From: Paludisphaera rhizosphaerae
Lineage (GTDB): Bacteria; Planctomycetota; Planctomycetia; Isosphaerales; Isosphaeraceae
Reading direction: 5' to 3'
Length of the DNA stretch: 64,000 nucleotides
Assembly: GCF_011065895.1 (NCBI RefSeq)
Contig: NZ_JAALCR010000004.1
Coordinates: 186,001 to 250,000, forward strand
A program made the translations under genes and the position numbers. Below, one piece after another: positions 23,281 to 64,000 of this stretch. Within the stretch, counting starts at the first letter, position 1; every line of letters begins with the position of its first letter. A model generated the notes under the pieces. It saw only the letters and a list, made by a program, of their open reading frames with translations, was not told where the DNA came from and ran no database searches.

Positions 23281-24748
23281 CTCAGAGTCCGCTGAGGTCA
23301 GCGGCGCTGATCCGGATCCCCTTCTTCAAGCCCAGCCCTTTCACCACCTCGTCGGTCGCCGGGAAGGTCATGCTCCGACGCGGACCGATGCTCACTCCCG
23401 AAAGCTCCTTCGGCTCCGACGACGGATCGTCGGCTCCCGCAATCGCCAGACCATTGAGCACCAGCGGCGACGCGTTCTCGATCTTCACCTGGTACGTCGG
23501 CTTCCCCTTCGACCGCGGCCCCTGGCTCAACTGCGCCCGAACCAGACGGTTCAGCACTCCGCCGGCCAGCTCGTCGGCCGTCGCCTTGGCGTCGAACTTG
23601 CCGTCCGACTCCGTCACCGGCAGCGTGAACTTGCCGAACGGCACCCACGCCTGAGCCGTGCTGTTGCTCGAAGCCACCTGAACCAACGCCTCCTTGCCGT
23701 CGACCCGGATCCGGCAGGCCACCGCCGGCCCTTCGGGCTCCGCGGGAACGCCTTCGCGAGCCCACAGACCCAGCACCGGCTTGTCCTTCAAAGCCTTGGT
23801 CAACTCGTCGGCCGCCGCCTGCGACTCCGGCCCCTTGGCGTCGACCTGGAACAGCAGCACCCCCGTCTCATCGTCGGGCAGCGTGGCCAGCCGATCCACG
23901 AACTCCTGAGCCAGCGTCAGCTCGTACTCGTAGTTCTTGCCCCGCTTCTCGGCCATCCGAGCGATCACGTCCCAGTCCAGCCCCTGGGCCAGACGCCACA
24001 TCACCAACTGGCTGATCGACTCCGGAGCCTTCTCGGCGGCCAGCCGACGCAGCGCCTTCTGCACCCGAGCGTCGGCGTTGATCTGCGACACGTCGCCGAG
24101 TTGGAGCTGCTCGCCCTCGGCGGGCAGCCGCACCGTGCCGTCCTCGTTGGGAGCGCTCAGGCTGACCAGACGGGTGGGCAGCTTGCGGTTCTGGCCAGGC
24201 TTGAGCGAGGCGTAGGGCAGCCCGGTGGGAGCGACCGACCGCATGCCCATACCCATGCCGCCCATGCCGCCGCCCATGCCGCCCATGCCACCCATGCCGC
24301 CGCCCATGCCCATGCCGCCCATGCCGCCCATCATGCCGGTAGCGAGGCTGCGCTGGTCCCACGAGTCGTAGTCGCCGCAGAGCGACATGATCAGGCGGGC
24401 GAGCATCATCATGCCCATCATCGGCGGCATCGTCCCCGACATGCCGCCGCCCATGCCGCCGCCCATGCCGCCGCCCATCCCGCCGCCCATCCCGCCACCC
24501 ATGCCACCCATACCGCCGCCCATACCACCCATGCCGCCGCCCATGCCACCCATACCGCCCATGCCGCCGCCCATGCCGCCCATGCCGCCCATCTGGCCGG
24601 CGGCGCCCTGAGCGATAAGACCGGGGGGCAGAACGACGTTGAGCTGGCGCTTGGACTTGTTGGTGACCGAAACGGTCATCCGGCCGTCGCCTCGGCCCTC
24701 GGCTTGCACGTCCACCAGGCCGTCGCGCATCGCGTCCAGCAGGTTTAC
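23281..24748. repeat. Tandem duplication, copy A (about 1.47 kb)
   Basis: This segment is almost identical to 24986-26459. The match starts at the stop codon of each gene and ends abruptly after AGGTTTAC in both, just downstream of the signal-peptide codons. By eye only a handful of substitutions are seen in the first ~1 kb, plus a 6-bp length difference in the repeat tract. Confidence 0.95.
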
Positions 24749-24865
24749 CGGCGCTGGTTCCGACTCTGCCGCTGGCGGCTCGCCGGCCCTCGCGCCCGCC
24801 GGAGAAAGGGCGAGCACGAGAAGTCCGGGCGCAAACCTAGCACACGCCGATCTAAGAAACCTCAT
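23282..24865 (-). CDS. Secreted Gly/Met-rich (GMGG) repeat protein, copy A
   Basis: The protein has 527 residues and a signal peptide (LLVLALSPAGARA), with a strong ribosome site (GAGGGGGG) before the ATG. An N-terminal ~70-residue domain (LLDAMRDGLVDVQAEG, then MTVSVTNKSKRQLNVVLPPG) leads into a long GGMGGMGG tract (about residues 90-145). A short hydrophobic Met-rich stretch, a second GMGG tract (about 185-215) and a ~300-residue globular C-terminal domain follow. I do not recognise the family; it looks planctomycete-specific. Met-rich repeats could bind copper(I), which is only a guess. It is a near-perfect duplicate of the gene upstream, with a different signal peptide. Confidence 0.85.
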   Translation of the reverse strand: MRFLRSACARFAPGLLVLALSPAGARAGEPPAAESEPAPVNLLDAMRDGLVDVQAEGRGDGRMTVSVTNKSKRQLNVVLPPGLIAQGAAGQMGGMGGMGGGMGGMGGMGGGMGGMGGGMGGMGGGMGGGMGGGMGGGMGGGMSGTMPPMMGMMMLARLIMSLCGDYDSWDQRSLATGMMGGMGGMGMGGGMGGMGGMGGGMGGMGMGMRSVAPTGLPYASLKPGQNRKLPTRLVSLSAPNEDGTVRLPAEGEQLQLGDVSQINADARVQKALRRLAAEKAPESISQLVMWRLAQGLDWDVIARMAEKRGKNYEYELTLAQEFVDRLATLPDDETGVLLFQVDAKGPESQAAADELTKALKDKPVLGLWAREGVPAEPEGPAVACRIRVDGKEALVQVASSNSTAQAWVPFGKFTLPVTESDGKFDAKATADELAGGVLNRLVRAQLSQGPRSKGKPTYQVKIENASPLVLNGLAIAGADDPSSEPKELSGVSIGPRRSMTFPATDEVVKGLGLKKGIRISAADLSGL

Positions 24866-24985
24866 GAAGCCCCCCTCATAATAAACCCGCCGTAAACGAA
24901 AGAAGGACCGCGATTAGCGGCCCTTCGTTTCGACGATTTGAGATCGACAAGCTTACGATCTGAGCTGCGGCCCAGCGGCCAACTT

Positions 24986-26459
24986 CTCAGAGTCCGCTGA
25001 GGTCAGCGGCGCTGATCCGGATCCCCTTCTTCAAGCCCAGCCCTTTCACCACCTCGTCGGTCGCCGGGAAGGTCATGCTCCGACGCGGACCGATGCTCAC
25101 TCCCGAAAGCTCCTTTGGCTCCGACGACGGATCGTCGGCTCCCGCAATCGCCAGACCATTGAGCACCAGCGGCGACGCGTTCTCGATCTTCACCTGGTAC
25201 GTCGGCTTCCCCTTCGACCGCGGACCCTGGCTCAGCTGCGCCCGAACCAGACGGTTCAGCACTCCGCCGGCCAGCTCGTCGGCCGTCGCCTTGGCGTCGA
25301 ACTTGCCGTCCGACTCCGTCACCGGCAGCGTGAACTTGCCGAACGGCACCCACGCCTGAGCCGTGCTGTTGCTCGAAGCCACCTGAACCAACGCCTCCTT
25401 GCCGTCGACCCGGATCCGGCAGGCCACCGCCGGCCCTTCGGGCTCCGCGGGAACGCCTTCGCGAGCCCACAGACCCAGCACCGGCTTGTCCTTCAAAGCC
25501 TTGGTCAACTCGTCGGCCGCCGCCTGCGACTCCGGCCCCTTGGCGTCGACCTGGAACAGCAGCACCCCCGTCTCATCGTCGGGCAGCGTGGCCAGCCGAT
25601 CCACGAACTCCTGAGCCAGCGTCAGCTCGTACTCGTAGTTCTTGCCCCGCTTCTCGGCCATCCGAGCGATCACGTCCCAGTCCAGCCCCTGGGCCAGACG
25701 CCACATCACCAACTGGCTGATCGACTCCGGAGCCTTCTCGGCGGCCAGCCGACGCAGCGCCTTCTGCACCCGAGCGTCGGCGTTGATCTGCGACACGTCG
25801 CCGAGTTGGAGCTGCTCGCCCTCGGCGGGCAGCCGCACCGTGCCGTCCTCGTTGGGAGCGCTCAGGCTGACCAGACGGGTGGGCAGCTTGCGGTTCTGGC
25901 CCGGCTTGAGCGAGGCGTAGGGCAGCCCGGTGGGAGCGACCGACCGCATGCCCATACCCATGCCGCCCATGCCGCCGCCCATGCCGCCCATGCCACCCAT
26001 GCCGCCGCCCATACCCATGCCGCCCATGCCGCCCATCATGCCGGTAGCGAGGCTGCGCTGGTCCCACGAGTCGTAGTCGCCGCAGAGCGACATGATCAGG
26101 CGGGCGAGCATCATCATGCCCATCATCGGCGGCATCGTCCCCGACATGCCGCCGCGACCACCCATCATGCCGCCGCCCATGCCGCCGCCCATACCACCCA
26201 TACCGCCGCCCATACCGCCCATACCGCCGCCCATGCCACCCATGCCGCCGCCCATGCCACCCATACCGCCCATGCCGCCGCCCATGCCGCCCATGCCGCC
26301 CATCTGGCCGGCGGCGCCCTGAGCGATGAGACCGGGGGGCAGAACGACGTTGAGCTGGCGCTTGGACTTGTTGGTGACCGAAACGGTCATCCGGCCGTCG
26401 CCTCGGCCCTCGGCTTGCACGTCCACCAGGCCGTCGCGCATCGCGTCCAGCAGGTTTAC
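24986..26459. repeat. Tandem duplication, copy B (about 1.47 kb)
   Basis: Partner of 23281-24748. The intervening 237 bp hold the 5' end of copy A, its leader and nothing else recognisable. Identity continues through third codon positions, so the duplication is recent or the copies are kept alike by gene conversion. Confidence 0.95.
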
Positions 26460-55736: not shown

Positions 55737-56486
55737 ATGCATGGGACGGTCGTGATGCTGATGGCCCTCAGCGGCCTGGGCTGTCACTACAAGCACGCGG
55801 ACGTGGCTTTTGTCCCGTCGTGCTACAGCAGCTCGGACAGCTGCTACAGCAGCAGCTGCTACAGCGGCGGCTGCTACAGCAGCTGCTATGCGTCGATCCA
55901 GTCGACGTACTACGGCAGCACCTCTTACTACAACGGCTGCTACTCGTCGGCCGACTACATCGGCGGCTGCTACAGCGAGAGCTGCTACTCCGACCCCTGG
56001 CCGAGCTGCTACAGCGAGAAGAAGGGCTGCTGCTTCCTCAAGAAGCTGTTCGGCGGGCACGGCGGCGGCGGGCTCTTCAAGAAGCACCACAAGTCGTATG
56101 ACTCGTGCTACAGCAGCTGCTACTCCTCGATGTACGAGTCCTGCTACAGCGGCTGCTACTCGTCGGTCTACGAGCCCCCGGTCTTCGGCTCGGCGATGCC
56201 GATCTACGAGACCCCCTACGCGACCTCGCAGGCTCCTGCGAAGTCGTCCTACGTGGCCCCCGCGGCCAGCGAGGCTGTGAAGCCAGCCACGGTTCCCGAC
56301 GCCCCGGCCGCCGCTCCCGCGGCTCCGGCTCCCGCCGCGGTTCCTGACGCCCCGGCCCCGGCGACCCCGGCCGACGCGCCGGTCGTCACCCCTCCGCCGC
56401 CGCCGACCCCGGCCTCGGCCGTTCAGGACGCGGTCAACTCGGTCGCGCCGGCGGGTGTCACCCCGGCCCCCACGATCAAGCCCTGA
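55737..56486 (+). CDS. Exported or anchored CYS-repeat protein, unknown family
   Basis: The protein has 249 residues. A short hydrophobic N-terminus (MHGTVVMLMALSGLGCHY) could be a signal with a lipobox-like Gly-Cys. Residues 28-140 hold thirteen Cys-Tyr-Ser/Ala units (SCYSSS, SCYSGG, GCYSSAD and so on), interrupted by a Lys/Gly/His block (KKGCCFLKKLFGGHGGGGLFKKHH). The rest is an Ala/Pro-rich tail without Cys. The ribosome site is GGAG, 9 nt upstream. Regular Cys and Tyr suggest a cross-linked surface or sheath protein, by disulfides or dityrosine; this is inference. The DNA is built on TGCTAC/AGC trinucleotide-like runs. Confidence 0.8.
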   Translation: MHGTVVMLMALSGLGCHYKHADVAFVPSCYSSSDSCYSSSCYSGGCYSSCYASIQSTYYGSTSYYNGCYSSADYIGGCYSESCYSDPWPSCYSEKKGCCFLKKLFGGHGGGGLFKKHHKSYDSCYSSCYSSMYESCYSGCYSSVYEPPVFGSAMPIYETPYATSQAPAKSSYVAPAASEAVKPATVPDAPAAAPAAPAPAAVPDAPAPATPADAPVVTPPPPPTPASAVQDAVNSVAPAGVTPAPTIKP

Positions 56487-56511
56487 TCTCGGACCTCGCG
56501 AGAATGAGCAA

Positions 56512-56551
56512 GCGACGCCCGCCGGCGGCCCTCCCGCCCGGCGGGCGTCGC
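56512..56551. terminator. Terminator hairpin between convergent genes
   Basis: A perfect 14-bp stem (56512-56525 with 56538-56551) and a 12-nt loop lie 26 bp after the CYS-repeat stop and 23 bp from the end of the convergent HAD-HerA gene. Only a short U-run (CTTTC) follows on the plus strand. Confidence 0.7.
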
Positions 56552-56573
56552 CGCTTTCGAACGGATGGCGGGC

Positions 56574-58310
56574 TCAGGCGGAGGTCACTCGCTCGGCGGG
56601 AAGCGTGTAACGCTCCTCGATCGCCTGCTTGATCTGCTCACGACTCTCCTGAGCGGAGAGCCCGGCGGTGGCGGCGATCCGCTCGGCCGCTTCGCCCAGG
56701 TCGTCGTCCTTGATCCCCTCGTGGAACCAACGGGCGTAATCCCCCTGCTGGAGGTGGTGCTCCCAGGTGGCGTCGTCAACGCCCTCGGCAAGCTGAAGGA
56801 AGGCCACCAGGTTCTGAGCCCGGAGGTTCAGCTTGTCTTCGGGCCCCTTGAAATAGAAGCTGCGATCCGGCCCCAGGTTCCCCTCGGCGTACTTGCGGCT
56901 GTGCCTCCGTCGCTGGACCTTCGGCGGCGTGGTCTTCACGCGCAACGGCGGACGATCGTCGTTACGGAACCAGGCCAGGGTCTCGCCTCGCTCCAACTTG
57001 ACGGCTTCCAGGCCGGGTGGTTCGGAGACGCCGACGGTCTCGCAGAAGAGGCGGATCGTCTTCTCCGGATGCTCGCCGATCGCCAGCAGTACGTCGACCG
57101 CCTCAAGAAGAGCCGGCGCGATGCTGTCGGGGTGGACGGTGATGTAGAGCATTCCCCGCAGCTCCTTCGGGATGACCAAGGGCGCGGGCTGCCAGGCGGC
57201 GGGCATCAGGTGATGGACCTCGTCCACCACGATCCAGTGCGGCCTCCCCGTGTGCGCTCGAAGATCCTGGAGCCGAGGCAACAGTTGATCCGAGAAGCCG
57301 GGGCGATCCTTCAGATCGATCCCCAGCATGTTCACGGAGGCGTCCGGCATTTCCGGCCGGGAGAGCAGCTCCTCGACTTCCTCCACGGTCGGCGGGTTAT
57401 GGGGGTCGCCGAGTTTCATCGTCAGTTCAAGCTCGTCGTAGTCCCCCTCGGGATCGACGATCACGAACTGGTAGCGAGCCTCGCTCAGGCGTTCGAGCAG
57501 GCCGGTCGTGAGGGTGGACTTCCCGCCCCCCGACGTGCCGGCGACCAGCACGTTCAGGCCGTATGGGTTGATCCGAACCTCGCGGCCTTCATCGTCCTCG
57601 CCGAGCAGGATCTCGTGACGGGAGAGCTTGGGTTGCAACCCGACGAGATCGTCGTCGAGCAGTTGCTGGATCAGTTGCGTCACGCCAGGACCGTGATCGG
57701 CGGGCGTCGTCCAGTCAGCCCGCTCCTTCACGGTGTCGAGGGCGTTCGAGACCGCCACGGCGCACTCGCAGGAGGCGAGGAAGGCGTGATCGTTCTCCGC
57801 ATCCCCCACGGCGACGACGTTGTGGGCGGAAAGCCGCAGGTCGCGCAGGGCAGCCTCCAGGCCGGTCGCCTTGTTCACCCCCGAGGGGAGGACCATCACC
57901 GCCCCCTTGTTGAAGATGACCTGCAACTCCAGGCCCATCTCACGGACGACGTCGAAGACGACTGTCTCGTGGGGCTCCCAGGTCGCCACGATCACGCGGC
58001 CGACCGAGATCGGCCCGACGCCCCGAGCCTTCAAACGCTCGACGAATTCCGTGGGCGCGGCCTCGGCCAGCTTCTCCTCTTCCTTCACGTCGGGGCGATA
58101 GAGGAGTGCTCCGTTCTCCGCCACGATCCGGTCGAAGAGCGCAGGGTCCGGAACCAATTCCAGAAGTTCGTCGAGTTCCCGCCCGGTCACCATGATCAGC
58201 TTCCGGCCCGATTCCTTGAGCCGGCGGAGAGCGTCCAGGGTCGGTGGATCGATACGTCCGTCGGTGGCGAGGGTGCCGTCATAGTCCGCGGCAAGTACAT
58301 GGTAGCGCAT
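56574..58310 (-). CDS. Fusion of HAD-IIB phosphatase and HerA/FtsK-like ATPase
   Basis: The protein has 578 residues with two domains. The HAD domain (1-200) has DYDGT (Asp9 and Asp11), VTGR at 41-44, Lys147 and GDAEND at 169-174, so all catalytic residues are present (Cof/sugar-phosphatase type). The P-loop domain (about 230-430) has Walker A GTSGGGKS at 258-265, VIVDPEGDY at 283-291 as in HerA/DUF87 ATPases, and Walker B WIVVDEVHH at 359-367. A ~130-residue C-terminus (helical, charged) follows. No DNA-processing partner such as NurA is nearby. A 36-bp piece of its 5' end is copied at 59766. Confidence 0.87.
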   Translation of the reverse strand: MRYHVLAADYDGTLATDGRIDPPTLDALRRLKESGRKLIMVTGRELDELLELVPDPALFDRIVAENGALLYRPDVKEEEKLAEAAPTEFVERLKARGVGPISVGRVIVATWEPHETVVFDVVREMGLELQVIFNKGAVMVLPSGVNKATGLEAALRDLRLSAHNVVAVGDAENDHAFLASCECAVAVSNALDTVKERADWTTPADHGPGVTQLIQQLLDDDLVGLQPKLSRHEILLGEDDEGREVRINPYGLNVLVAGTSGGGKSTLTTGLLERLSEARYQFVIVDPEGDYDELELTMKLGDPHNPPTVEEVEELLSRPEMPDASVNMLGIDLKDRPGFSDQLLPRLQDLRAHTGRPHWIVVDEVHHLMPAAWQPAPLVIPKELRGMLYITVHPDSIAPALLEAVDVLLAIGEHPEKTIRLFCETVGVSEPPGLEAVKLERGETLAWFRNDDRPPLRVKTTPPKVQRRRHSRKYAEGNLGPDRSFYFKGPEDKLNLRAQNLVAFLQLAEGVDDATWEHHLQQGDYARWFHEGIKDDDLGEAAERIAATAGLSAQESREQIKQAIEERYTLPAERVTSA

Positions 58311-58752
58311 GGCGGGGCGTCCTCAAAATCGACAGGAGAGCCTCCCGACGCAAAGCAAATAACGCGCCGATGGAGGATCGACAGAGGCCGTGCGAGACAG
58401 GCTGCCCGCCATGCAATTAACAATTGTTTTCAAATACATGCCTGTGTATCTGCCGCAATTCCTCTTGAGCGGCACAACCGATCTTCGAAAGATTCCGGCA
58501 CTTTCGCGTCCACCGCCCGGCGAGCCTTAACGATCTCCCTTCAGACCAGCCACGTATGGCGTATTGGGGCGACCGCGAACGACGGTCGTCATCGAAAACA
58601 TGGCTCGACTTGATTTCATGGACTAAAAAACACTGAATCGCAAACATGGCCTATTGAAACCAGCCATACCGTTATGATAAGAAATCAGACAATCGGTTAT
58701 GCGGCCACCGTTCGTGCCGAGGCTTCTTTTTCTCTCTGAGGAGGCTGTGGTC
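58311..58752. other. AT-richer intergenic region between divergent genes
   Basis: This region is less GC-rich than its surroundings, with a perfect palindrome AACAATTGTT at 58419-58428 and an AT-rich patch at 58620-58700 just before the next gene. No gene is supported: the short frames have no ribosome site. Confidence 0.5.
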
Positions 58753-59667
58753 ATGACACTTCTTGCGCAACCCAGTACTCGACAGTCTCGCAAACGCCCG
58801 ATCAGACAGTTCCCGCTCGACTGGAAGAACAGCGAGAGTGGTGGTCGACTTGAGCCACGGCTGCCGACCGTGCCGATCTTCTTCAAAGTGAATAACGGAG
58901 CGTTAGAGTTCGCCAGCATTTGGGGCCCCAACCTGGCGCAGACTAATGACGCCAATCCAACGACTGCCTATGTGGCCGGGACAGACCAGCAGTTCTCGTT
59001 CTTGGGCCCGGGAGTTAATATCGCGTACGCGGGCCAAGTGCAGGCCAATTTAATCGATGTGCCGAACACCTCGCCTCCGACTTCCCCACCTACGGGCGGG
59101 TATGCCGTCGAGACCAATTCGGCGCATCAGATTTCCGCAGTCTTCCCCGGAATGGTTCCCGGAACCCCGGAGTTTATGACCACTACCGCCCTAGGCGGAG
59201 CAGCTTACACACTGGCAGACGATCAGGTTCCCGCAACCACGCCCGTGACACTAGTGGAGAACTACGAAGTCGTGTACTTTCCCACGGTTGGCGACACATT
59301 CGCCTCGGCGGCGGTCGTCATAATGAACTTCGGCAGCAATCTTACATTTACCCTAAACGGAGATCAAACCGGACTTATTCAAGTCGGAGTCGCCACGGCG
59401 CCGGGCTTGTCTCCGCCGTGGGGGACAGCGACCTTCGGAGCTACGACGATCAATTGGTCGATGTCTGCAACGACATTCGTGGCAACTGCTCAGACCGTTT
59501 TTCCGACGGGGCTTCCTTCGACGGGAGGGGCTAACCCACCCACCGGTATCGCTTGGAACGCGGCTTACGCATCGATTCTCACCGTCGGATACGGCGGAGG
59601 GCCGATTGGAACTGTAACGAACGATCTGGCCGAATTGACCACGCACTACGACGCATCATTCGTATAA
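58753..59667 (+). CDS. Unknown protein, AT-richer than its neighbours
   Basis: The protein has 304 residues from the ATG at 58753 (GAGGAGG about 11 nt upstream). I recognise no domain. The N-terminus is basic (RQSRKRPIRQFPLDW) without signal peptide. The rest is rich in Thr, Ala, Gly, Asn and small hydrophobic residues (TAYVAGTDQQFSFLGPGVNIAY, then FGSNLTFTLNGDQTGLIQVG), which suggests a beta-sheet protein. Codons such as TTA, ATA and AAT are more common than in the rest of the window, which points to horizontal gain or a young gene. It lies between the HAD-HerA gene and the copied piece of that gene. Confidence 0.7.
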   Translation: MTLLAQPSTRQSRKRPIRQFPLDWKNSESGGRLEPRLPTVPIFFKVNNGALEFASIWGPNLAQTNDANPTTAYVAGTDQQFSFLGPGVNIAYAGQVQANLIDVPNTSPPTSPPTGGYAVETNSAHQISAVFPGMVPGTPEFMTTTALGGAAYTLADDQVPATTPVTLVENYEVVYFPTVGDTFASAAVVIMNFGSNLTFTLNGDQTGLIQVGVATAPGLSPPWGTATFGATTINWSMSATTFVATAQTVFPTGLPSTGGANPPTGIAWNAAYASILTVGYGGGPIGTVTNDLAELTTHYDASFV

Positions 59668-60007
59668 CCTCGGTTCAGAGGAACGTCGGCGGAATCGTCT
59701 CTGTCGTCAGGGCTCTGCCTTCTCAGGCTGCGGGTCGACACCCTGGTTCAGGAAGAGGGCCTCCGGGGTCGGTGGATCGATACGTCCGTCGGTGGCGAGG
59801 GCCCCCCTCATAATCAACTGCGCACGCCTCGAAGTGCATTAGATGACGCCCCCTGGGTTGACCAGGGGGTCTGCATCAGACGTCGCAAGCAAATGCGGCG
59901 CCGTCTACAGCGCTTGATTGACGAGGCCGATCCGAGCGATTATCTTCGCGCCGTCACCTGTCCGAGGCAGGCGATCCATCATTTCCTCTTCAGAAACAGG
60001 GTCGAAT
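59668..60007. other. Intergenic stretch with HAD-gene fragment
   Basis: It holds the fragment at 59707-59811, and otherwise no gene. The open frame upstream of the small lipoprotein through this stretch has no conserved content. A short GC-rich palindrome CCCCCTGG-N6-CCAGGGGG lies around 59850-59870. Confidence 0.5.
59707..59811 (-). pseudogene. Fragment copied from the 5' end of the HAD-HerA gene
   Basis: Positions 59766-59801 are identical over 36 bp to 58238-58273 of the HAD-HerA gene and are in the same orientation; weaker match extends ~8 bp on each side. On the minus strand it forms a 34-codon frame that starts at an ATG (59811) and reads ALATDGRIDPPT as in the HAD domain, then runs into unrelated sequence and stops. 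It lacks the catalytic DYDGT and cannot be an enzyme. Confidence 0.6.
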
Positions 60008-60202
60008 ATGAACAGGCGATATTTCTTGACGGGCCTCGCCGCTGTCCTGGGCGCGGGGAGTCTTTTTATGACGGGGTGCGGCGGGTCGGTCGGCGACAAC
60101 CTTCCCCCACCGAAGCCTGCGACGTCGGAGGAAATCGAGAAGAACAACCAGGACATGAAAGACCAGATGAAGGCGATGGGCAAAGGCCCCAAGACCAACT
60201 GA
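60008..60202 (+). CDS. Small lipoprotein, unknown
   Basis: The protein has 64 residues. The N-terminus MNRRYFLTGLAAVLGAGSLFMTGCGG is a lipoprotein signal with a twin-arginine start and Cys after MTG. The mature part (GGSVGDNLPPPKPATSEEIEKNNQDMKDQMKAM) is short and helical. Tiny lipoproteins of this form are frequent in planctomycetes, often next to DUF1559 genes; here a DUF1559 gene is convergent to it. Function unknown. Confidence 0.8.
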   Translation: MNRRYFLTGLAAVLGAGSLFMTGCGGSVGDNLPPPKPATSEEIEKNNQDMKDQMKAMGKGPKTN

Positions 60203-60222
60203 GCATCGGTTCCTAAACGCGG

Positions 60223-60260
60223 AGAGGCCGCCGCCGGAAACCATTCCGGCGGCGGCCTCT
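60223..60260. terminator. Strong hairpin between convergent genes
   Basis: A perfect 17-bp stem (from AGAGGCCGCCGCCGGAA) with loop ACCA, 20 bp after the lipoprotein stop and 60 bp from the end of the convergent DUF1559 gene. No long U-run on either strand, but the stem is very stable and could stop transcription from both sides. Confidence 0.75.
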
Positions 60261-60320
60261 TGTGCTTGAACGGGGGTCGGCTCCAGCAGCCTTAACCCGA
60301 AGACGCCTCGGGGGAGGACG

Positions 60321-61427
60321 TCAATACGAGTCTGCGGAGATGACCTCGCCATTGCCTCTGGTGCCGAGGGCGTACCAGGTCTGGACGTTGATCGAGTTCT
60401 TGATGAACCGGACCGAGCCGTCGGCCAGGCAGACGTTCACGCCGCCCGAGTGGTTGCTGCGAGGAGTGTGAAACCCGTAGCCGACCCCCGACGATCCCCA
60501 GTTGGAGCAGTCGGGAGTCGAGTTGTTGGGTGTGATCATGAAATTGAACGTCGACTGATTGTAGTTGTCCGACGCCCATTGATACCCACCATAGTTCCAC
60601 GTCTGGAGGGGGTTCGCCTTGGCGAACGCGGAGCAGGCCGGCATCATCGAGCTGACGATGAAGGCTGCGTCCATCTGGGCGATGTAGAACGTGGGCGCGG
60701 GCATGTTGGCACCGACATAGATGTCGCTGGGACTGAACTTGGTGTTGCTGCCGTCGCCTCGGTTGCGCTCGGCAAAGGCCACGGTGTTCGATGTGCCGTC
60801 GGTAATCCCCGCGATCGTCCCCGCGCCGTAGTTGGTCGAGGCTGCGTAGCATACAGTGGGGATGACCGTGGAATCATTGTCGGGCCGTCCGAAGACGCCG
60901 GCACCGCCGGCGCGGGAGTGCCAGTCGTAATTCGTCCCGTTCGACAAATAGTAGTTGTTGCGACCAACGCCGGTGCCGTCGCTGGGGCAGAGCAGCGAGG
61001 CGATCGTCGTGCTAACGGCGGTGAACTGGATAATGTCGAAACCGGAGACGCTGGTCGTGTTACCGCCGAACGTAACACCCCACATAAAGTTCATGGAGTT
61101 CGCCACCGCCTGCTGCTCGAAATACGGCAGCATCAGGGCGATACCGCTGATTCCCTGGTGCGGTTGAAGTTGTGCCGTGGGAGCGGCAGGGTTGCCAGGA
61201 CGGCCGCAGACCTGGTTCCACGGGAAGCCGCTGTTGGCCGACTCGTAGTTGTGCAACGCGAGGCCGAGTTGTTTCAGATTGTTGACGCATTGAGCCCGAC
61301 GAGCGGCCTCGCGGGCCGCCTGGACGGCGGGGAGTAAGAGGGCGATCAGGACCGCGATGATCGCGATCACGACGAGCAACTCGATCAGCGTGAAGCCGAT
61401 TCGAGCGCGTGGGGAGACGACGCGCAT
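60321..61427 (-). CDS. DUF1559 pseudopilin-type protein (second)
   Basis: The protein has 368 residues from the ATG at 61427 with GGAGGTG about 8 nt upstream; a longer open frame upstream is ruled out by the leader. The type IV pilin-like signal is [19 protein letters not shown], cut before Phe12. The family sequence [29 protein letters not shown] follows, and the C-terminus is [17 protein letters not shown]. Two DUF1559 copies in 31 kb fit the strong expansion of this family in planctomycetes. The exact role, probably at the cell surface, is unknown. Confidence 0.95.
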
Positions 61428-61791
61428 TCGAGACACCTCCGAATTGGACGAGGACGCTGGAGTTGATGAAGGATCTAAACCGGCACGACTCAGAGATCCA
61501 ACAAGCAGGGACGGGTGGCCGCGTTGGGCCTGATTGACACTTAGACAACATTCCGCGGCGGGGATCAAGGGACGACACCGCAAATACTTCTGAAATCAAG
61601 CGACGCGTTGCATTTTTCGGCTCAACCAATTTCGTCCACGCTCGGTTTCAACTGAATTTTTTCACGCCGACGAGAGCGACCCACGAAAAAGTACCGACCT
61701 CTGACGTCACGACCGATTTGACCCAAGCCTACTATTAGCTGAATGGAACGCCGAAGGACCGACGAATACTCTCGTTTTGGAGCGTGTGCGG
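61428..61791. other. Divergent intergenic region
   Basis: It carries the control regions of the second DUF1559 gene and the small gene at 61792. It is AT-richer around 61610-61700. No dyad or clear promoter pair stands out and no RNA gene is seen. Confidence 0.5.
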
Positions 61792-62124
61792 ATGTCGAGA
61801 CGTCCCTTGAATCGTCGTGAGTTGAGGGCGGCGGCGGAGGCCGCCGAGGCGCGAGGCATCCCCCTGGGACCGGATTCGGGATCACGACCCCGAAGCCGAT
61901 CGGACTCGTCCCCTGCTCGGCCGAAGCCGTCGCCGACCACACGCATGAAGGTCGTCTGGGCAGTCTGCGACGTCGGCGGACGAACGGTCGCCACGTTCGA
62001 CTACGTCGACAAGGCCGCCGCCGAGGCCCGCGCCGCCGAACTCAAGGCGAAGGGAAAGGGCAACCACTTCGTCCGCTCCGTAAAGGAGCCGTTCAGCTCC
62101 CATGGGACCTCCTCGCCCGATTGA
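61792..62124 (+). CDS. Small basic protein, unknown
   Basis: The protein has 110 residues from the ATG at 61792 (GGAG 10 nt upstream). A basic, Ser/Pro/Arg-rich N-terminal half (MSRRPLNRRELRAAAEAAEARG, then SRPRSRSDSSPARPKP) is followed by a compact part KVVWAVCDVGGRTVATFDYVDKAAAEARAAELKAKGKGNHFVRSVKEP, which looks like a small alpha/beta domain. I recognise no family. The nearest downstream gene is ilvB, 206 bp away, on the same strand. Confidence 0.65.
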   Translation: MSRRPLNRRELRAAAEAAEARGIPLGPDSGSRPRSRSDSSPARPKPSPTTRMKVVWAVCDVGGRTVATFDYVDKAAAEARAAELKAKGKGNHFVRSVKEPFSSHGTSSPD

Positions 62125-62330
62125 CGGGACGGGCGCGAACATCTCGGGGAACACGCCCCTCTGGAGAGACGCCCGAATCGGAGGGACGAAACTCCACGCG
62201 CGTCGGGTTGTCGCCGCGCCGGGCCGTTGGCTAGAATGACATGTTTCCGGGACCCGCCGGCTCCGAGGCCGAATCGAGACGTCACCGGAACGACGAACGC
62301 AAGTCAAGTAAGTACGACGAGGGACGCACT

Positions 62331-64000
62331 GTGGCCGCCACAGAGAATTGCAAGCTTCCGACCGCAACCAGGCCCACGACCGGGGCAGACGTCCTGGTCG
62401 AGTCTCTGGCGAGGCACGGCGTCGACGTCGTATTCGCTTACCCGGGCGGGGCGAGCATGCCCATGCACCAGGCCCTGACCCGCTACCGCGACCGGATCCG
62501 GACCATCCTCCCCCGCCACGAACAGGGGGGCGTCTTCGCGGCCGAGGGTTACGCGCGGGCCAGCGGCAAGCCTGGCATCGTGATGGCCACCTCCGGGCCC
62601 GGCGCCCTGAACCTGGTCACCGGCCTGGCCGACGCCAAGATGGACTCGATCCCGCTGATCGCCATCACCGGGCAGGTGCCGACCCACGTCATCGGGACCG
62701 ACGCCTTCCAGGAAACGCCGACCGTCGAAGTCTGTCGCGCCATCTGCAAGCACGCCTACCTCGTGCAGGACGCCCGCGACGTCGCTCGGGTCGTCAAGGA
62801 GGCGTTCTATCTGGCGACCACCGGCCGTCCGGGCCCCGTCCTCATCGACATGCCCAAGGACGTCCAGAACACGATCGTCCAGAACCCCGACTACGACGTT
62901 GAGATGGATCTCCCCGGCTACCGCCTCCCCCCCCCGCCCTCCCAGGCGAGGATTCGTGAGGTGGTCGAGGCCCTGCGCACGGCCGAGCGGCCCATCATCT
63001 ACTGCGGCGGCGGCGTCCTGGCCTCCAACGCCGGCGATGAACTCCGCGAGTTCGCCGCCAAGACGGGCATCCCGGTGGCCATGACCGTCCACGGCCTGGG
63101 GGCCATGCCCAGCGACCATTACCTCTCGCTGGGCATGCTCGGCATGCACGGCACGGTCTACGCCAATGAGGCCGTCAACGGCGCCGACCTCTTGCTGGCC
63201 CTGGGCGTCCGGTTCGACGACCGCGTCACCGGCAAACTGACCGAGTTCGCCAAGCACGGCAAGATCGTCCACGTCGACATCGACGCCTCGGAGATCAACA
63301 AGAACAAGTACGCCCACATTCCGATCCACTCCGACGTCAAGTCGTTCCTTCAGGAAGTGACGCCTCTGGTCTCCACCGGCGACTACCGCGCCTGGCACAA
63401 GCAGGTCGACGAGTGGCGCGCCAGCGACCCGATGGCCTACGACCAGCGCGACGACGCGATTCTGCCCCAGTACGTCCTCGACGAGTTCTCCAAGATCACG
63501 GAGGGCGAGTTCATCATGTCGACGGGCGTCGGCCAGCATCAGATGTGGGCCGCGCAGTGGACGAAGTTCAAGCGGCTGCGGTCGTGGATCACGTCCGGCG
63601 GCCTGGGCTCGATGGGTTACGGCCTCCCCGCCGCCATGGGCGCGCAGGCGGCCTTCCCCGACGCCCTGGTGGTCGACATCGACGGCGACGGCAGCTTCGT
63701 GATGAACATCCAGGAGCTGGCGACGGTCTTCTGCGAGAACCTGCCGATCAAGATGATCGTCCTGAACAACCAGCACCTGGGGATGGTCGTCCAGTGGGAA
63801 GACCGCTTCCACCAGGGGAACCGCGCCCACACCTACCTGGGCCCCGTCGACCACCCCGAGGCGGTCGGCAAGGGGGACGGCGAACTGCCGGCCGTCACCT
63901 ATCCGGATTTCGTGACGATGGCCAAGGGCTTCGGCATCGCCGCCCGCCAGATCCGCAAGAAGTCGGACGTCGCCGACGCCCTCAAGGAGATGATCGCCCA
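62331..64000 (+). CDS. ilvB: Acetolactate synthase large subunit (3' end outside window)
   Basis: About 556 codons are in the window and the frame stays open to its edge. It starts at a GTG with GAGGGA 6 nt upstream. The ThDP-enzyme fold is clear: [15 protein letters not shown] with HEQGG (catalytic Glu), then [10 protein letters not shown] in the FAD-binding middle domain, and [16 protein letters not shown] followed by [15 protein letters not shown], the ThDP/magnesium site typical of acetohydroxyacid synthase. It makes acetolactate from pyruvate as the first step of valine and leucine synthesis. The small subunit gene would be expected downstream, outside the window. Confidence 0.96.

Follow-up and report, generated by a model that had tools for sequence, protein, structure and literature searches.

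The question raised by this locus is how a short piece of a protein-coding gene came to be repeated, without a single mismatch, on the far side of an AT-richer gene. The window, i.e. the whole stretch of 64,000 nucleotides from Paludisphaera rhizosphaerae that has been analysed, contains two identical stretches of 36 bp, located at 58238-58273 and 59766-59801, in the same orientation and at a spacing of 1528: the left 36-mer (minus strand) corresponds to codons 13 to 25 of the HAD-HerA gene, and the right 36-mer (minus strand) is an identical island within a decayed relic of the 5' end of that gene. The original prediction had reported this pair as identical and had taken it for the scar of an insertion or of a past partial duplication; the match is indeed exact, and the uniqueness of the 36-mer, together with an empty site in related genomes, points to duplication plus insertion, with a duplicated unit that is longer than was first seen.

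The repeat stands out both in the window and in the genome. A repeat search widens the match to 60 bp at 85%, and the 36-mer is the longest exact repeat pair in the window, if the tandem duplication at 23-26 kb is excepted. The idea that the 36-mer might be a common genome repeat does not hold: the 21-base core of the 36-mer occurs at two exact places in the 8,048,700 bases of the genome (110 contigs), with one more place at three mismatches, and a DNA search of the genome with positions 59700-59900 has returned the query itself, the 5' end of the HAD-HerA gene (E 2.4e-13) and 21 other matches with E of at least 0.2.

The parent of the repeat is the live HAD-HerA gene (56574-58310, minus strand), which encodes 578 aa with a HAD-IIB domain followed by a HerA/DUF87-type ATPase domain, as is supported by Pfam (Hydrolase_3, 2.6e-26; DUF87, 7.6e-07), by NCBIfam (HAD-SF-IIB, above its cut-off) and by four congeners, with which the protein shares 83-86% identity. 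At E <= 1e-20, a match to HAD-HerA is found in 22 of the 45 family genomes (own genome included), with one match each, some of them partial; a further search has found at least 80 relatives among the matches listed, of which the contig of P. soli alone was taken into the analysis. The HAD-HerA genes of genomes G057 and G056 (L050 and L053) carry one TGA stop each and a fifth congener (G003) is without a match, so that the gene seems to be dispensable in the family. Upstream of the start codon, a leader motif (58353-58369, minus strand) aligns in the four congeners; a motif like GGCGCGTGANTTGCT precedes the HAD-HerA start codon by about 40-60 bases, both in the window and in the same four congeners (L033-L036), with weaker forms in some other family members, and is a candidate promoter or regulatory site.

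Local alignment pairs 58196-58397 with 59723-59937, and by this comparison the 36-mer is seen to be the portion of a decayed duplication, about 200 bp long, that has been preserved best. The left, live unit (58196-58397, minus strand) comprises HAD codons 1 to about 39, together with the leader and a piece similar to the -35 region of the promoter of the neighbouring lipoprotein gene, in which the unit ends, near 58397. The right, decayed unit (59723-59937, minus strand), recognised by alignment, by a profile match and by its start peptide, holds the relic of the HAD 5' end and leader, and the relic leads into the promoter-like site (59918-59946) of the lipoprotein gene; the order of the elements has been kept, i.e. 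a HAD codon stretch, the old start codon, the leader and the promoter of the next gene.

The support for this longer homology comes from the start-codon side of the 36-mer. The old start codon of the relic is located at 59839, where the relic reads MHFEACAVDYEG as against MRYHVLAADYDG in the live gene, one base out of frame. When MRYHVLAADYDG is slid over all frames of the window, its own gene scores best and the second place is taken by 59839-59804 on the minus strand, i.e. by MHFEACAVDYEG, with a score of 32, followed at a distance by the next score of 23 among the 127,930 positions scanned. The relic start peptide keeps collinearity with the true start, apart from one base that has been added between the old start codon and the 36-mer. 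The start-plus-leader homology is equalled by 0 of 1000 shuffles if gap costs are loose and by 26 of 1000 if they are strict, and its score is reached by 6 of 3875 random segments of the window (for the leader alone, by 5 of 3879). A profile of the four congeners, from which the own gene was left out, matches the relic at E 1.9e-11, and after masking of the 36-mer it still matches the collinear place, weakly (E 0.39, as computed for two copies of the window); the corresponding values for a profile built from 15 relatives are 3.8e-11 unmasked and 0.2 masked. The flank on the far side, taken alone, has no significant homology (329 and 73 of 1000 shuffles score as well). Of the weaker match that had been proposed for both sides of the 36-mer, the start-codon side is thus upheld by the second-best start peptide of 127,930 and by collinear homology to the parent gene beyond the exact repeat, and the far side is not.

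The relic no longer codes for the HAD-HerA protein: it carries the extra base, and the frame that opens at an internal ATG stops after 34 codons. The original prediction had let the copy begin with an in-frame ATG of its own; this ATG exists, at 59811, and opens the 34-codon frame, but it is internal to the DYDG codons, the ancestral start being the one at 59839. The same decay bears on the suspicion that the arrangement is an assembly error that joins repeated DNA, for which the draft state of the genome, with its 110 contigs, might speak: a copy that is collinear, decayed and frameshifted is not the product of a misjoin, and the position of the locus is internal to a contig of 376,795 bases, so that we find such an error scarcely credible.

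The comparison with five genomes of the genus Paludisphaera (G001-G005, with G004 being Paludisphaera soli JC670) has revealed an empty site. HAD-HerA is present in four of the five congeners, and both the relic and the orphan gene that separates the two units in the window are missing from all four; the possibility that the arrangement is fixed in all relatives is thereby answered in the negative. In G001 and G005, HAD-HerA directly faces the lipoprotein gene, with the two start codons 332 and 239 bp apart, as compared with 1,697 bp in the window, i.e. a version of the locus without about 58400-59720, for which the original prediction had suggested looking, does exist in these two relatives. 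In G002 and G004 (L034 and L035), other sequence is found at the HAD-HerA junction, including matches to a DUF1559-type gene, so the intergenic place is variable within the genus. A profile scan of the four congener loci has found a single HAD 5' end, the native one, at each, with the next-best match at E 0.14 and about 4.7 kb away; an intermediate, i.e. the duplication without the insert or the reverse, was not seen in this comparison.

The native right-hand neighbour at the junction is the small lipoprotein-like gene (60008-60202, plus strand), as similar proteins of 62 residues are located at the same place in G001 and G005. Its promoter-like site (TTGACG, 17, TATCTT; 59918-59946, plus strand) is the one site found in a scan where 0.6 are expected in shuffles, and a similar TTGAC element is seen by eye before the lipoprotein gene in G001, G002 and G005. 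Just after the gene, a perfect 17-bp inverted repeat with a 4-base loop occurs at 60223-60260, and G001, G002 and G005 have a comparable hairpin behind their lipoprotein gene.

Between the two units lies an insert of about 1.3 kb (58398-59723), which is absent from the junction in G001 and G005 and which contains an open frame of 304 aa (58753-59667, plus strand), with AGGAGG just upstream of its ATG. The GC content of the insert is 51.3% before this orphan gene and 57.6% within it, and the GC3 of the orphan gene is 63%, as opposed to 82-87% in three neighbouring genes, in agreement with the AT-richer gene that had been noticed between the copies. The GC content of the lipoprotein gene (59.5%) is also below the 65.6% of the window; low GC alone, therefore, does not mark foreign DNA.

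No relative of the orphan has appeared in the sets that were searched. The protein has no match up to E 1 in Pfam, NCBIfam and PHROGs, its best match among PDB sequences is at E 0.19, and in three overlapping sets of 40, 45 and 294 genomes, each of which includes the own genome, it is found in the own genome only. Six short peptide patterns have picked out 40 candidate stretches in genome contigs and 5 in viral contigs, none of which is a relative, and tblastn of the orphan against phages and plasmids has returned nothing. The AlphaFold model has a mean pLDDT of 30.6 and is useless for fold comparison. An RLEPRL stretch in the orphan recalls the planctomycete LEPR-XLL signal; no NCBIfam match was obtained for the orphan, and a literature search that paired LEPR-XLL with Planctomycetes found nothing.

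The content of the insert also bears on the alternative that the whole HAD-HerA gene was first duplicated in tandem, with the right copy then losing its body by deletion and decay, and the orphan entering later or arising in the remains. Such a course would leave the same 5' relic beside the lipoprotein gene, and it agrees with the direct, collinear order of the units. A full-length HAD-HerA profile that was run over the insert, however, finds no similarity inside it, only the relic, so that a decayed second HAD-HerA body within the insert was rejected; moreover, the 22 family genomes with a match, among 45, have one each, and there is no second copy at the congener loci. We regard this alternative as unlikely.

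At both borders of the insert, at 58398 and 59724, the 7-mer CAGGCTG is found, which has only these two places within 58300-60000 and 11 in the whole plus strand; the pair may be a 7-bp target duplication, microhomology or chance, and its right member also lies within the HAD-aligned stretch. In the insert, no mobility gene is recognised (its one gene has no family match), and the inverted repeats that are listed for 57500-60500 do not pair its ends. An identical core in diverged flanks, placed at the 5' end of a gene and on both sides of a lower-GC insert, could also recall site-specific integration, with the 36-mer as the core of two attachment sites and a small non-autonomous element that re-supplied the HAD 5' end. 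Against this stand the lack of a recombinase in the insert, whose one gene is without a Pfam, NCBIfam or PHROGs match, the extension of the homology past the core through the start codon and leader, the contrast between a decayed right side and a live left side that, as far as the start codon, resembles the congeners, and the presence of only two copies of the core in the genome; we attach only a very slender chance to such an integration.

The locus can be set beside three known situations. With a partial tandem gene duplication that has left a relic, it shares the direct, collinear 5' copy, one of the pair being functional and the other frameshifted and truncated, but here the units are separated by about 1.3 kb that hold an unrelated gene, and the 36-bp island has not decayed. 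With an insertion that carries a long target duplication, it shares the target on both sides of a foreign-looking insert and the empty site in relatives; transposon target duplications are usually of a few bases, however, whereas the target here is about 200 bp, and no transposase or integrase is recognised, only the 7-bp CAGGCTG at the borders. With gene conversion between repeats, it shares a short identical tract between otherwise diverged copies, but the tract here is only 36 bp long in very diverged flanks, and would be closer to a template switch than to an ordinary conversion.

Our best explanation, which we consider probable, is the entry of about 1.3 kb with some 200 bp of target on both sides, followed by the decay of the right HAD part and the re-homogenisation of the 36-bp tract. 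The ancestral order would have been HAD-HerA on the minus strand, its leader, the lipoprotein promoter and the lipoprotein gene. A segment of about 1.3 kb, of lower GC and with a single gene, would then have entered between HAD-HerA and the lipoprotein gene in this lineage, and some 200 bp of target (HAD codons 1 to about 39, the leader and the beginning of the lipoprotein promoter) would have come to flank it on either side. The left unit, which still leads into HAD-HerA, would have stayed intact; the right unit would have kept the lipoprotein promoter, and its HAD part, with no gene behind it, would have decayed and acquired a frameshift. Later, the 36-bp tract of the relic would have regained identity with the live gene, for which a short template switch between the direct repeats, or a conversion between them, is the most likely route. 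Insertion and duplication would thus be one event, with the decay and the homogenisation of the tract coming later and late, respectively; a single insertion would be the simplest account, and a duplication that came first, with the insertion later, would leave the same picture.

The identity of the island is what most needs explaining in this history. Between the own gene and the relic, all 36 columns are identical in the tract, as compared with 58 of 112 and 26 of 58 aligned columns on its two sides, and the identity of the relic around the island is about 45-52%. At sites where the own genome differs from the four agreeing congeners, the own state recurs in the relic at 2 of the 2 sites that fall in the tract, at none of the 6 on the start side and at 3 of the 5 on the far side (small numbers all). 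This pattern of private sites would fit a recent homogenisation with one clear tract border and one unclear one; as three of the five private sites on the far side are shared and the flank there is not significant, the tract has one clear border at best. A caveat for conversion is that flanks of only about 45-52% identity need very short seeds.

Selection on the tract of the relic, which might serve as a binding site or, within the 3' part of the orphan transcript, as an antisense element, would account for the same contrast between 36 of 36 columns and the columns beside them; the tract follows the orphan stop at a distance of 99 bases, on the strand required for an antisense RNA, is perfectly complementary to the HAD-HerA mRNA just after the start codon, and is separated from the orphan stop by none of the terminator-like sites listed. 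On the other hand, no promoter-like site for an antisense RNA is among those listed, the RNA fold of the tract is not unusual (z -0.50), no Rfam element is found in 56000-62500 up to E 0.5, and the two private changes that are common to both copies fit copying better than constraint. We hold selection to be very unlikely and favour recent homogenisation as the source of the identical 36 bp. A specific form of constraint, in which read-through RNA of the orphan gene would pair perfectly, over 36 nt, with the start region of the HAD-HerA mRNA, the decayed duplication having been co-opted as a regulator that ties the new gene to its neighbour, is in our view extremely improbable.

Taken as a whole, the locus shows a familiar type of scar, with a lineage-specific gene at its centre, and the identical island and the orphan gene are not wholly routine. 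The duplicated target marks the borders of the insert and so locates the arrival of a lineage-specific gene in a planctomycete, and the decayed relic provides a rough internal clock: if the insert and the duplication came together, the 304-codon orphan frame has stayed open over the period in which the flanks of the relic came to differ by about half, an argument for the orphan being in use. The 36-bp island itself is a modest, testable example either of co-option or of conversion over a very short tract.

Two further features of the window may be mentioned. Beyond the 3' end of HAD-HerA, an open frame of 249 aa (55737-56486) is rich in SCYSS-type Ser-Cys-Tyr repeats and has a Pro/Ala-rich tail; it has no Pfam match, and DNA similarity is seen on the same side of HAD-HerA in four congeners. 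At 23281-26459, a large direct duplication occurs, whose copies are spaced about 1705-1711 bp apart and agree exactly over stretches that reach 666 bp; this tandem duplication is much more recent than that of the HAD-HerA 5' end.
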